Of a stretch of 64,000 bases of DNA, positions 8,120-12,084 are shown in pieces. The notes under the pieces were generated by a model. It saw nothing but the letters and a program-made list of their open reading frames with translations. It had not been told where the DNA came from and made no database searches. This DNA comes from Pseudomonas baltica (GTDB lineage Bacteria > Pseudomonadota > Gammaproteobacteria > Pseudomonadales > Pseudomonadaceae). Location of the stretch: assembly GCF_031880315.1 (NCBI RefSeq), contig NZ_CP134771.1:3312501-3376500 (forward strand). The letters are read 5' to 3'. The position numbers were made by a program, and so were the translations under genes. Positions within the stretch are counted from its first letter, which is position 1. Every line of letters starts with the position of its first letter.

Positions 8120-8160
8120 GGCGGACTGATTGTGCCCATCTGTATCAGTCCGCCGGTTTC
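8120..8160 (+). terminator. Hairpin after the CoA-transferase gene
   Basis: Perfect 11-bp inverted repeat GGCGGACTGAT (8120-8130) / ATCAGTCCGCC (8144-8154) with a 13-base loop, then GGTTTC. It starts 10 bp after the stop. The T-run is weak, so termination strength is uncertain. Confidence 0.55.
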
Positions 8161-8180
8161 GGACCTGCCAATATTCAAAA

Positions 8181-8346
8181 ACTGTACTACTGTGCCTATG
8201 TTTTATCCCTGTTTGTCGATAAAAAAACAGTCAAATTCACTTGCATGGCACTTTTTCAGTGCAGACCAATACAGTTGCTTCATTTTCGATCAAAACAGTC
8301 TCGTTAAACAGTTAACTGAGCTCTCACAATACAGTTGAACTGTGCC
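8181..8346. promoter_or_regulatory. Cluster of ACTGTAC/ACAGTT repeats upstream of the DUF1127 gene
   Basis: The 319-bp spacer before the DUF1127 gene is AT-rich and carries repeated half-sites. They are a tandem ACTGTACT-ACTGTGCC (8181-8196), single ACAGT sites at 8227, 8271 and 8295, the palindrome CAGTTAACTG (8309-8318) and the palindrome ACAGTTGAACTGT (8331-8343), which runs into GTGCC. The pattern looks like a multi-site operator. Similar words recur at 8801-8980 before the DUF2388 genes. The regulator is not encoded beside it. Confidence 0.5.
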
Positions 8347-8428
8347 TTGGGAGAAAGCCTGCGCAGGAGGATCATTACTCCCAGACAAACCACTGACTGA
8401 TCCCGCCACAAGCGGAAGGATGTACACC

Positions 8429-8644
8429 ATGGAACGCACCGTAAGTTCCGACCTGCTCTTCAAATCCAGCACTGCAAACGCTTCGACTTCTGCACCGTTG
8501 CGCGTACTCGCCAACCTCATGCTGTGGCAACGCCGTATCGCCAGCCGCCATCAATTGGCCCGTCTGGATGCCCGCCTGCTGGCCGATGCCGGTATCAGCG
8601 AAGCACAACGTTCCGAAGAGCTGAGCAAGCCTTTCTGGCGTTAA
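8429..8644 (+). CDS. DUF1127 domain small protein
   Basis: Protein of 71 residues with the DUF1127 domain in its C-terminal half: LMLWQRRIASRHQLARLDARLLADAGIS. The start at 8429 is set by AAGGA at 8416-8420, eight bases upstream. DUF1127 proteins are short, Arg-rich and often stress- or phosphate-linked; some related ones bind RNA. No catalytic residue is visible. The gene stands alone between a repeat-rich promoter and a strong terminator, so it is probably monocistronic and heavily controlled. The precise role is unknown. Confidence 0.85.
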   Translation: MERTVSSDLLFKSSTANASTSAPLRVLANLMLWQRRIASRHQLARLDARLLADAGISEAQRSEELSKPFWR

Positions 8645-8697
8645 GCAACACCCGCTGGCCCAGGACTGCGCGTCCCTACCCAGCACCCCAAATTCCG

Positions 8698-8734
8698 AAA
8701 AACCGCCGCAGGCAACTGCAGGCGGTTTTTTTTC
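8698..8734 (+). terminator. Rho-independent terminator of the DUF1127 gene
   Basis: AAACCGCC / GGCGGTTT arms (from 8699 and ending at 8729) around an inner GCAGGCAACTGCA loop, followed by eight Ts. It is a classic strong terminator 55 bp after the stop. Confidence 0.85.
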
Positions 8735-8797
8735 GCCTGCTGAAAAAAAGCGTTTCGCATGAAAGCCCTGCGGTCCGGACTGCTGACTTGCTAACGA

Positions 8798-8980
8798 CAA
8801 GTACAGTTTTAATTATCCAAAAATACTACAAGTACAATTATGTGCTTCAATAGCTGTGCCACCGCAGCTCACTTCCAATGGATTGGCCGAACAGGCCAAG
8901 CGTTTCCAGTACGATTAGAGGCGTCACAGCAGTCTGTACTGGTATTGCCATGCCGCAACGGCTCTAATAGGACTGTGCCA
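8798..8980. promoter_or_regulatory. Repeat-rich promoter region of the first DUF2388 gene
   Basis: No gene lies in the 386 bp between 8645 and 9030. Beyond the terminator there are two ACAAGTACA words (8798-8806 and 8828-8836, 30 bp apart), GTACAGTTTT (8801-8810), AGCTGTGCCA (8852-8861), TCTGTACTGG (8933-8942) and GACTGTGCCA (8971-8980). These resemble the half-sites before the DUF1127 gene, suggesting one regulator acts on both. A promoter is inferred, not shown. Confidence 0.45.
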
Positions 8981-9030
8981 GAGCTGCCCAGCAGTTCGCT
9001 CTCATATCGCCATCATCCAGGAGAACCACC

Positions 9031-9348
9031 ATGTTCCGTTCCCGACTGCTCGGCGCTGCCCTGCTGCTGGCCCTGCCCCTGGCGGCCAGCGCGTCCAGCT
9101 TTGTCGTTACCACCGACTCCATCGTGCGCGGCCTCAAAGCGTCGTCCGATACCACCACGGACCTGTCTTCTTCGTTGCGCGACAAGAAGATCGTCCGCGA
9201 AGCCCGCGAAGACGCCGCCAGCTTTGTCGCCTCCCAAGGTGATATCCGTGGTGTGCGCCTGGAAAGCGCCCTGGCGTATATCCGTACTGAACAGCCACAG
9301 TTGCGAGCCACCGATGCGCAATTGGCGCAGGCTATTCTGGCGATCTGA
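9031..9348 (+). CDS. DUF2388 secreted protein, paralogue 1
   Basis: Exported protein of 105 residues. A signal peptide (FRSRLLGAALLLALPLAASA) is followed by an approximately 84-residue mature part with no Cys. The DUF2388 core reads DTTTD..SLRDKKIVREAREDAASF, then GDIRGVRLESALAYIR and LAQAILAI at the end. CCAGGAGAACC provides a good ribosome site. It is the first of three tandem paralogues (9031, 9482, 9809), followed by a large envelope protein. The family's function is not known. The conserved charged helix and LAQAIL tail suggest a small helical periplasmic protein. Confidence 0.85.
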   Translation: MFRSRLLGAALLLALPLAASASSFVVTTDSIVRGLKASSDTTTDLSSSLRDKKIVREAREDAASFVASQGDIRGVRLESALAYIRTEQPQLRATDAQLAQAILAI

Positions 9349-9481
9349 TTGCTTCGCTGGTGGACTTCGGTTGATTCGACCGACGTCCCCAGATGAATGT
9401 TTTGCCATATACCGCCAGGCACTGGCCCTCAAACACCGCCTTACGCTAGCCTGTATCGACTTCCACTACATACCGAGACTC

Positions 9482-9775
9482 ATGCGTTATCTGCTCCCGC
9501 TGTGCCTGCTCTGTGCCTGGACCTCCTCGGCCATGGCCTTCGACACCACGACCCAGGGTGTGGTCATGACCGGCTATGTCACCAGCCAGGTCACCACGGC
9601 GCCCTTCGATCGCAAGATCGTCCTGCATGCCCGCGACGATGCGGCCGCATTTGTCGCCACCAATGGCGCGATGCGCGGAGTACAATTGGAGTCGGCCCTG
9701 GACTACCTGCGCACACGAAGTGCAAAACTTCATGCGAGTGATCTTGAACTGGCGCAGGCAATTCTCGTCCAATAG
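9482..9775 (+). CDS. DUF2388 secreted protein, paralogue 2
   Basis: Exported protein of 97 residues starting at the ATG at 9482, with signal peptide RYLLPLCLLCAWTSSAMA. The core is more divergent than in its neighbours: the DTTT block is shifted to SQVTTAPFDRKIVLHARDDA, then MRGVQLESALDYLR and LAQAILVQ. A much longer open frame runs in from 8840 but its upstream part is not protein-like. The ribosome site is weak. The 133-bp gap before it leaves room for its own promoter. Function unknown. Confidence 0.8.
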   Translation: MRYLLPLCLLCAWTSSAMAFDTTTQGVVMTGYVTSQVTTAPFDRKIVLHARDDAAAFVATNGAMRGVQLESALDYLRTRSAKLHASDLELAQAILVQ

Positions 9776-9808
9776 CCACTTTCTTAAATCTGTATCCGGA
9801 GCACCTCA

Positions 9809-10129
9809 ATGCGTAACTCGCTGATCGCCGTCACTCTTGGCCTGCTGTGCGTGGCCGACATGGCCCAAGCGCACACTCTCGTCGCCACCAGCAACATCAT
9901 CGTCAATGCTTCGCGGCGCAGTGTTAACTTCACCTCCGATACCACCACCTCGATCCGCGACTCGAAAATCGTCCGCGAAGCCAAGGACGATGCCGCCAGC
10001 TACGTGGGCAGCAATGGTGACATCCGTGGCGCCCAGCTCGAAGCCGCCTTTGTGGCCGTGCGCAACGCCGTGCCCGAAGCCCGCAACGCCAGCGACCAGG
10101 ACCTCGCAGAAGCCATCCTCGCGCTGTGA
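9809..10129 (+). CDS. DUF2388 secreted protein, paralogue 3
   Basis: Exported protein of 106 residues with signal peptide RNSLIAVTLGLLCVADMAQA. The core DTTTSIRDSKIVREAKDDAA and GDIRGAQLEAAFVAVR matches paralogue 1 closely. CCGGAG lies just upstream. Its stop overlaps the GTG start of the next gene by 4 bp (GTGA), so it is translationally coupled to the DUF4105 protein. That coupling suggests the small proteins and the large one work together. Confidence 0.85.
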   Translation: MRNSLIAVTLGLLCVADMAQAHTLVATSNIIVNASRRSVNFTSDTTTSIRDSKIVREAKDDAASYVGSNGDIRGAQLEAAFVAVRNAVPEARNASDQDLAEAILAL

Positions 10130-12084
10130 GGCGCCTATGGGCCTGGCTGACGGCCTGCACCCTCTTGCTGTCGTGTCATACCGCCGTTGCCGCCCTGCAG
10201 CTTGATCTTCAGACTCAGGGCCTGACACCGGCACAAGTGCAGGCCACCCAGACCCTGCTCGACGATGCCATGCATGCGCTGCCGCCGAGCTTTATCGAAC
10301 GCCTGGATCGACGCATCACGGTCGGCTGGACCGACCACATGCCTGACGACGCCTACGGACAGGCCTCGCCAGTGTCCAGCCTCGACCTCAATATTCGCCA
10401 GCTGGCCAGCCTCACCGACGGCACTGCCGCCACCGAGCAGACCGGCCGCCCCCACGGCACCGTGCGCGCAGAACTGCTGGCCACGGTATTGCACGAACTC
10501 ACCCATATCTACGATCGCGCTCGCCTGTGGGCACCGGATCAGCGCCTGTTGCTCAGCCGCTGTGCGCGGCGCAACGCCAGCCTCGGCGATGTCGGCCTGC
10601 CCAGCGAGTGCCGTGGAGAAACGGCCCGGCGCTTCACGCTGAGCGACGATCCACGTCTGCTCGACCTGGCGGGCTGGCCGCAATATGTAGGCCGTCGCGG
10701 CGAACGGGAAATCCAGAATCACCAGGTCGCCCGCAGCCCGGACCTGTACGAAGCCAGCAGCCCGAAGGAATTCATCGCGGTCAACATGGAGTATTTCCTC
10801 CTCGACCCGAGTTACGCCTGCCGCCGCCCGGCGCTGTTCGAGTACCTGCGCGATCATTTCGGCTGGGCACCTGCCCATCAGGACGCCTGCGAGAAGAGCC
10901 TGCCGTACCTCAACGCCGGCAGCGACTTCGCCAAGGAGCCACTGGGCCACATTGATCCGGAGCGCGTCTACGAGGTCGACTACCTGCTGGCCGAAGCCAA
11001 TCAGAACTGGGTCAGCCGCTGGGGCCACAGCATGTTGCGCCTGGTGATCTGCGCCCCAGGACGGCCGCGCGGCCCGGACTGCCGCCTCGACCTGGACCAA
11101 AGCCTGGTGCTGTCCTATCGGGCATTCGTCAATGACGTGCAGCTGTCCACCTGGGGCGGGCTGATGGGTCAGTACCCGTCGCGGCTGTTCGTGCTGCCGT
11201 TGTCCCAAGTGATCGACGAATACACCAAGACCGAACTGCGCAGCCTGGCCTCGGTGCCGCTCAAATTGACCCGCAGCGAAATCGAATCGCTGGTGCGCCA
11301 CGCGGCGGAGATGCACTGGAGCTACGACGGCAACTACTATTTCGTCTCCAACAATTGCGCGGTAGAGAACCTCAAGCTGCTGCGCAGCGGTACCGGCAAC
11401 CCCAAGCTCGGCGACCTCGACAGTATCGTCCCCAACGGCTTGCTGCAGGTGCTCGAAGGCCGCGGCATGGCCGATGGCAGCGTGCTCGACGACCCCAAGG
11501 AGGCGCTGCGCCGCGGCTACCGCTTCGACTCCTACCGCGATCGCTACGCTGCCATGTTCAAGGTCCTCAAACAGCATCTCGACATCCCCCAGACCACAGT
11601 CGAAAGCTGGCTCGAGCAATCTGCCGCAGACCGCCGCGCCTGGTTCGCCAAGGCCGACCTGCGCACCAGCGCGGCCTTGCTGCTGCTCGAGCAGGCCAGC
11701 TACCGCCGCCAATTGCTGTTGGCTCAGGATGAGGTCAAGCAGAAGTACCTCGGCGCCCGCGAGCTCAAGAACGGCGGCATGGACAACGCCAACAAGACCC
11801 TGCAGCAGATCCTCGCCAACAGCGGATTCCTCAGCCGCCCGGCGGAGTTGCTGGGCGCCGACGGCTACGGCTTGCCGCAAGGGCCGGAGATGCAACGCCT
11901 GCAGTCCGAGAGCAAGCAACGCCAGGCGCAGCTGTTGAGCCTGAGCGTCGATCTCGACAAGGAAGTGCGCAAGCTGCTGACCCCCGAGCGCCAGGCCGAG
12001 ATCACTGCCAACGAGGACAACCTCAAACAGATCGGCGAGCATCTGCGGGCGCTGCATAAAGCGGCTGGCGGGTTGGAGTTGTAG
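10126..12084 (+). CDS. DUF4105 envelope protein with an HExxH domain
   Basis: Exported protein of 652 residues from a GTG start, with signal peptide RRLWAWLTACTLLLSCHTAVA. The N-terminal half has a zinc-peptidase pattern: HELTH at 123-127 and KEFIAVNMEYF at 214-224, whose E215 could be the third ligand, as in gluzincins. The C-terminal half is DUF4105. It has H301 in WGHSMLRL and C411 in SNNCAVENLKLL, a His/Cys pair reminiscent of permuted papain-like (NlpC/P60-like) folds. A coiled, Gln/Lys-rich tail follows from about 545. Active-site assignments are inference from motifs. It is coupled to the third DUF2388 gene and probably acts in the periplasm. Confidence 0.8.
   Translation: MRRLWAWLTACTLLLSCHTAVAALQLDLQTQGLTPAQVQATQTLLDDAMHALPPSFIERLDRRITVGWTDHMPDDAYGQASPVSSLDLNIRQLASLTDGTAATEQTGRPHGTVRAELLATVLHELTHIYDRARLWAPDQRLLLSRCARRNASLGDVGLPSECRGETARRFTLSDDPRLLDLAGWPQYVGRRGEREIQNHQVARSPDLYEASSPKEFIAVNMEYFLLDPSYACRRPALFEYLRDHFGWAPAHQDACEKSLPYLNAGSDFAKEPLGHIDPERVYEVDYLLAEANQNWVSRWGHSMLRLVICAPGRPRGPDCRLDLDQSLVLSYRAFVNDVQLSTWGGLMGQYPSRLFVLPLSQVIDEYTKTELRSLASVPLKLTRSEIESLVRHAAEMHWSYDGNYYFVSNNCAVENLKLLRSGTGNPKLGDLDSIVPNGLLQVLEGRGMADGSVLDDPKEALRRGYRFDSYRDRYAAMFKVLKQHLDIPQTTVESWLEQSAADRRAWFAKADLRTSAALLLLEQASYRRQLLLAQDEVKQKYLGARELKNGGMDNANKTLQQILANSGFLSRPAELLGADGYGLPQGPEMQRLQSESKQRQAQLLSLSVDLDKEVRKLLTPERQAEITANEDNLKQIGEHLRALHKAAGGLEL

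Follow-up and report, generated by a model that had tools for sequence, protein, structure and literature searches.

What do the small exported DUF2388 proteins of Pseudomonas do, and what ties one of them to the large protein encoded directly after it? The question is raised by a locus of Pseudomonas baltica (contig NZ_CP134771.1 of assembly GCF_031880315.1) that lies in a stretch of 64,000 nucleotides, positions 3,312,501 to 3,376,500 of the forward strand, referred to here as the window. Three DUF2388 genes stand in a row, and the last of them overlaps the gene of a protein with a DUF7844 domain and a Lnb_N (DUF4105) domain. Evolution has kept DUF2388 and DUF7844 as a pair, in Pseudomonas and in some of the Lysobacter-family genomes examined. 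The reading we favour, tentatively and with rather less than even confidence, is that they form a two-gene envelope module in which DUF2388 would be a dedicated periplasmic adaptor or activator of a bifunctional enzyme, DUF7844-Lnb_N, that acts on lipids or lipoproteins. Its observed basis consists of the genes and domains, a set of invariant candidate active-site residues, adjacency, a 4-nucleotide overlap, and joint presence and absence.

The earlier note on this DNA had stated that its reading would be refuted if DUF2388 genes usually lay apart from DUF4105 genes. They do not: the genes adjoin in each of the 80 top-ranking loci among 578 named relatives (80/80; five of the 80 are from Lysobacter) and in all 45 Lysobacter-family genomes that have both. 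The 4-nucleotide GTGA overlap is found in 77 of the 80 named loci, the remaining three being Lysobacter loci with an adjacent DUF2388 gene that lacks it, as well as in the 30 best-scoring loci of the Pseudomonas genus sample (30/30) and in 40 of 43 further DUF2388-bearing loci, some from genomes counted before. Both families occur in 149 of 149 Pseudomonas genomes, with a single DUF7844 match in 146 and two to nine DUF2388 matches per genome; the linkage of these copies is known from the listed places only and does not give a genus-wide ratio. Among 274 class-wide genomes DUF7844 exceeds its cut-off in five, with matches below it in two more, and DUF2388 is present in four, adjacent in each. 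The fifth genome, G159, has a 103-residue exported-looking open reading frame (ORF; L056 491-802) 9 nucleotides upstream of a diverged DUF7844-Lnb_N gene. The HMMER score of this ORF against DUF2388 was reached by four of 5000 shuffles (4889 scored) and by none of 3527 control ORFs (2988 scored). To judge by sequence it is possibly a DUF2388 protein missed by Pfam.

The most telling distribution is that in the family of genome G160, taken as the Lysobacter family because sequence grouping equates a locus of one member with a named Lysobacter locus. Of 119 genomes, 46 contain DUF7844 and 45 DUF2388; 45 have both and 73 neither, one has DUF7844 alone, and none has DUF2388 alone (Fisher p 3e-32, kinship uncorrected). 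The two genes always share contig and strand, 357-527 bases separate the DUF2388 match from the second DUF7844 piece, and each genome has one DUF2388 match. Two of four loci whose flanks were compared have common neighbours, and the other two seem to differ. That the genes are neighbours through shared expression alone, their products making no direct contact, gains something from the common TACAGTT-type sites described below, which suggest that in Pseudomonas DUF1127 is regulated jointly with the DUF2388 operon, and from the lack of specificity of the mirror-tree test. The concordant occurrence of both genes across 119 genomes, together with an overlap kept in two families, makes co-expression alone hard to uphold, and we regard this explanation as distinctly improbable.

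The large protein is, by sequence, a metallopeptidase-like DUF7844 domain followed by a permuted NlpC/P60 Lnb_N domain and a helical tail. The Lnb_N match is strong (PF13387, 93.3 bits against a cut-off of 22.2). The earlier note had placed an HELTH motif at residues 123-127, a glutamate at 215, and a histidine and a cysteine at 301 and 411; all are where it put them, and every one of 47 aligned homologues (47/47) retains H123, E124, H127, E215, H301 and C411. The first four residues provide the HExxH and downstream glutamate of gluzincin-type metallopeptidases, and the Lnb_N domain has a papain-like fold with histidine ahead of cysteine, as in permuted NlpC/P60 proteins. In a structural model (predicted local distance difference test score, pLDDT, 85.0; predicted template-modelling score, pTM, 0.82), HExxH falls within a single helix and E215 within a second one; a strand begins at H301, and C411 occupies the N terminus of a helix. 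Zincins and papain-like enzymes place such residues in the same secondary-structure settings. Over the E215 region an alignment profile matches the MtfA structure 9srw (E 1.7e-4) and 3dl1 (E 2e-4), the latter entered as a putative metal-dependent hydrolase, so that DUF7844 may be remotely akin to MtfA; the Pfam M90 score is 18.3, under the cut-off of 26.2, and the top two Foldseek rows, 3dl1 and 3khi, are weak (E 0.46 and 0.53). Four residues of the C-terminal helical part, Y581, G582, P584 and E588, are also invariant in the 47 homologues.

A small exported protein that is made just before a potentially harmful hydrolase, and coupled to it, might be an inhibitor or latency factor, holding the enzyme back from its targets until it is required. 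Periplasmic protease inhibitors hold enzymes off their targets in such a manner. The permuted NlpC/P60 group does contain a phospholipase toxin, according to the accessible text of PMC12994826; two to nine conserved copies per genome would be unexpected for a simple inhibitor, and structure comparison matched DUF2388 to no known inhibitor fold. Inhibition is considered improbable.

The gene calls agree with the earlier note in finding three small exported paralogues in a row, the third joined to a 652-residue protein by GTGA, and a PF06568 match bears out the DUF1127 gene that it had placed before them; its interval began at position 8120, ahead of the DUF1127 gene, and hence took in the upstream region of that gene. 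All three DUF2388 proteins exceed the cut-offs of both PF09498 and TIGR02448. By a crude hydropathy measure they and the large protein each have an N-terminal hydrophobic segment resembling a Sec signal, from which we infer export, and none has a second strong 19-residue hydrophobic window. The two flanking genes scanned with Pfam, in which no search aimed at the type VI secretion system (T6SS) was made, encode a CoA hydrolase/transferase and a CitMHS transporter.

Table 1. Features of the DUF2388/DUF7844-Lnb_N locus, in window coordinates.
Feature	Positions	Strand	Basis
TACAGTT/AACTGTA half-sites before DUF1127, including inverted repeat TACAGTTGAACTGT at 8330-8343	8180-8343	.	sequence, density
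DUF1127 gene, 71 aa from the ATG chosen	8429-8644	+	PF06568 E 8.6e-9
Hairpin and U-run past DUF1127, probable intrinsic terminator	8697-8731	+	-22.7 kcal/mol, z -3.75
Direct repeat TACAGTT-N24-TACAATT, probable operator of DUF2388 operon	8802-8839	+	genome pattern match
DUF2388-1, "first" copy, predicted exported, 105 aa	9031-9348	+	PF09498 E 4.9e-30; tree
DUF2388-2, "mid" copy, predicted exported, 97 aa	9482-9775	+	PF09498 E 9e-30; tree
DUF2388-3, "adjacent" copy, predicted exported, 106 aa, coupled	9809-10129	+	PF09498 E 2.4e-28; tree
GTGA stop/start overlap of DUF2388-3 with large gene	10126-10129	+	sequence
DUF7844-Lnb_N large protein, 652 aa, predicted exported, two domains and helical tail	10126-12084	+	
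DUF7844 domain, residues 25-253, with HELTH 123-127 and E215	10198-10884	+	
Lnb_N/DUF4105 domain, residues 274-429, with H301 and C411	10945-11412	+	
Mostly helical C-terminal region, invariant Y581, G582, P584, E588	11443-12081	+	model, alignment

The DUF2388 proteins share one order of parts, a hydrophobic start, a Ser/Thr-rich stretch and a helical bundle. Serine and threonine make up 34% of the first 25 residues of 69 aligned segments and 8% beyond. The model (pLDDT 75.8, pTM 0.65) assigns low confidence to mature residues 1-19 and helices to residues 22-29, 32-46, 54-66, 68-72 and 75-84, and the Ser/Thr-rich N-terminal stretch is probably disordered. D96 and L99 are present in all 69 rows and K53 in 67, and the C terminus stops at one place throughout, with ILAL or ILVQ in 47. 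A further DUF2388 gene of the same genome stands apart from the operon (L004 1474-1851, minus strand) beside an NfeD-like gene; genes that look from their translations alone like SPFH-type and glycine-cleavage genes are also nearby.

These features lend themselves to a close rival of the adaptor reading, which we judge somewhat unlikely: the DUF2388 proteins may be substrates, several of which the single enzyme would trim and/or acylate before they work elsewhere in the envelope. It is the DUF2388 copy number in Pseudomonas that favours it, one DUF7844 protein facing many DUF2388 proteins of which some are unlinked; the probably disordered tail before a helical bundle, the nearly constant lysine and the fixed C terminus would suit a client, and Lnb is reported to N-acylate lipoproteins (PMC12994826, as far as its accessible text goes). 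Substrates, on the other hand, would not need translational coupling, and Lysobacter-family genomes make do with one DUF2388 match each (45/45). The G159 ORF, as aligned by hhalign, lacks the lysine, the C terminus extends further in the unlinked copy of the window's genome, and since only three of the 69 rows hold any cysteine, ordinary lipoprotein acylation is not the case.

A more specific proposal is sequential action on DUF2388, in which DUF7844 would trim the Ser/Thr-rich tail and the Lnb-like domain would move a phospholipid acyl chain to the freshly exposed amine or the near-invariant lysine. It seems to us highly improbable. If true, it would constitute a one-enzyme lipidation route by which exported proteins could dispense with a lipobox cysteine, and a genome would hold several DUF2388 clients.

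The history of the small genes was traced with a tree built from 71 short rows, for which the program warns of few columns. Besides the window and unlinked copies, it includes every copy from 19 of the 80 named loci and, from the Lysobacter family, five named and six other rows. All 20 adjacent copies lie on one side of a branch with support 100/100, and 18 of 20 mid rows are grouped with the same support, the two outliers coming from loci with just two copies; the 18 first rows do not form a single group. The 11 Lysobacter-family rows are one group (95/81), and two unlinked copies occupy a long branch of their own. Over 55 loci the adjacent copy has changed least (0.12), followed by DUF1127 (0.16), the enzyme (0.19), the first copy (0.22) and the mid copy (0.33).

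It is because of obligate pairing, coupling and this low rate of change that the adaptor or activator role is preferred. The core pair would be the adjacent DUF2388 protein, small, exported and helical, and an exported enzyme composed of a gluzincin-like DUF7844 domain and a permuted NlpC/P60 Lnb_N domain. Coupled translation would make the two in step, and in the periplasm the adjacent DUF2388 protein would bind the enzyme as an obligate adaptor or activator. H123, H127 and E215 may hold a zinc ion in DUF7844, which would cut a peptide. Permuted NlpC/P60 enzymes act on lipids and form an acyl-enzyme through a Cys/His dyad, as described in the accessible text of PMC7387801 and PMC12994826; by analogy C411 would form an acyl-thioester with the help of H301 and act on the acyl chains of phospholipids or lipoproteins. 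Acyl transfer or lipid hydrolysis is thus the activity expected of the Lnb_N domain and peptide cutting that of DUF7844. In Pseudomonas and its close kin the partner would have been duplicated into the first, mid and further unlinked copies, which probably serve the single enzyme as alternative adaptors or as clients.

Several points weigh against assigning DUF2388 an adaptor role. One enzyme with two to nine DUF2388 proteins per Pseudomonas genome suits substrates equally well or better, and unlinked extra copies do occur in the genus. No adaptor-like sequence or fold neighbour, and no solved structure convincingly like DUF2388, was found. The mirror-tree signal is unspecific to the adjacent copy, which also argues against a simple one-partner view: with two neighbours removed, the partial correlation with the enzyme is 0.30 for the adjacent copy, 0.32 for DUF1127, 0.45 for the first copy and 0.62 for the mid copy. 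Shared expression alone can hold neighbouring genes together. The resemblance of the G159 ORF to DUF2388 is weak, both by hhalign (probability 9.3%, E 0.0035) and by HMMER (9.8 bits, domain E 0.28).

The earlier note had included the DUF1127 gene in one system and had seen similar half-sites in the two upstream regions. Enrichment of such sites holds overall: in 75 sequences ACTGT/ACAGT occurs 16.9 times per kb before DUF1127 and 5.8 times before DUF2388-1, against 1.4 across loci and 1.7-1.8 in shuffles. It does not hold region by region, seven of the 12 DUF2388-1 upstream regions displayed having no half-site. The direct repeat, as TACAGTT-N20..26-TACARTT, has one match per genome in six of six chosen Pseudomonas genomes (reversed control, 0/6), and each of the six sites lies, by its coordinates, at most about 0.5 kb upstream of an operon DUF2388 gene. 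These patterns suggest a common regulator for DUF1127 and the DUF2388 operon.

Of the 80 named loci, 74 have DUF1127 close to the operon, and five Lysobacter loci and one of Stutzerimonas lack it. It is not regarded as a core member because none of the five named Lysobacter loci has it and a probable terminator separates it from DUF2388 in the window. The earlier note's interpretation is partly supported, and substrate, inhibitor and targeting factor, the roles that it proposed for the small proteins, are candidate ones. By a simple criterion a hairpin and T-run follow DUF1127 in 50 of the 74 loci. Weighing against its exclusion are the 24 loci without such a terminator and 12 of the 74 (six of them Stutzerimonas) in which it lies just 50-117 nucleotides ahead of DUF2388-1 and may share its transcript. 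DUF1127 is probably a co-regulated and frequent neighbour on the Pseudomonas side.

What appears to be a parallel pairing of a small partner with another Lnb_N architecture is seen across the class. The window's genome holds two more Lnb_N genes, one of them, a DUF7843-Lnb_N-DUF7840 gene, downstream of a DUF3015 gene (L001 509-997 and 1147-3000). In the class sample of 274 genomes there are 62 DUF3015 matches in 49 genomes, all 49 of which also have Lnb_N, and 53 of the 62 are no more than 3 kb away from it. The likeness to the DUF2388 pair is a small exported-looking protein encoded directly before a large Lnb_N protein; the differences are a small protein whose sequence kinship with DUF2388 is unsupported (hhalign P 0.13 over 8 columns) and, in the one enzyme read, other flanking domains.

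The sample's 81 Lnb_N matches, in 65 genomes, have DUF3015 upstream within 2.5 kb in 47 cases, DUF2388 in four and neither in 30, the last including G159 and three genomes (G237, G269, G384) with DUF3015 on the enzyme's other side. The idea that each Lnb_N protein has its own small exported partner is unsupported: among 20 of these 30 regions, a crude call finds a small signal-like ORF just upstream in two (L250, L262) and none in 18. As a separate observation, the other additional Lnb_N gene of the window's genome, for a protein of 334 residues, is overlapped by 4 nucleotides by an alpha/beta hydrolase gene (L002 1345-3452, minus strand). The association of a lipid-acting family, Lnb_N, with two kinds of small exported protein dedicated to it, DUF2388 and DUF3015, offers one testable role for two unknown families. 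DUF2388 and DUF7844, both present throughout the Pseudomonas genomes sampled, still carry the names of domains without an assigned function; should the module modify lipids or proteins of the envelope, it would represent a conserved envelope route.

A search of the literature on DUF2388, DUF4105 and DUF3015, with PP_3743 as the only individual Pseudomonas locus tag included, found no functional study of the pair in the library searched. The sole expression datum found, in the accessible text of PMC6034422, is a roughly five-fold increase of PP_3743, a DUF2388 gene, in a P. putida alr mutant. In the portions seen of two other papers DUF2388 is a mere label of predicted clusters (PMC11963402) and a role for DUF4105 is guessed from gene context (PMC10318531).

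Among known systems, MtfA and the M90 family share with the window protein the HExxH motif, the downstream glutamate and the profile match over the E215 region; they differ in that the M90 score is below cut-off and the window protein is predicted to be exported and is fused to Lnb_N. TseH and Tox-Act1 are permuted NlpC/P60 effectors of the T6SS, whereas the window protein has a signal-like N terminus and its DUF7844 domain is found in 149 of 149 Pseudomonas genomes. An accessory effector would not be expected in every genome of a genus. LnsA/LnsB, which N-acylate lipoproteins in Staphylococcus aureus, likewise combine an NlpC/P60 superfamily enzyme with a second protein (PMC7387801). LnsB, however, is remotely homologous to the CPBP family, for which DUF2388 has no Pfam match; the lnsA and lnsB genes are noncontiguous, unlike the coupled DUF2388/DUF7844 pair, and the accessible text of that paper mentions no metallopeptidase domain. 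The comparison with Lnb, which is reported to be the Bacteroides lipoprotein N-acyltransferase (PMC12994826, PMC13103446, PMC13251419, in their accessible parts), extends to a Lnb_N domain above cut-off and to the order of histidine and cysteine, here H301 and C411. Acyltransferase activity is only predicted for the window protein, which has a fused DUF7844 domain, one strong hydrophobic segment, at its N terminus, and a DUF2388 partner.

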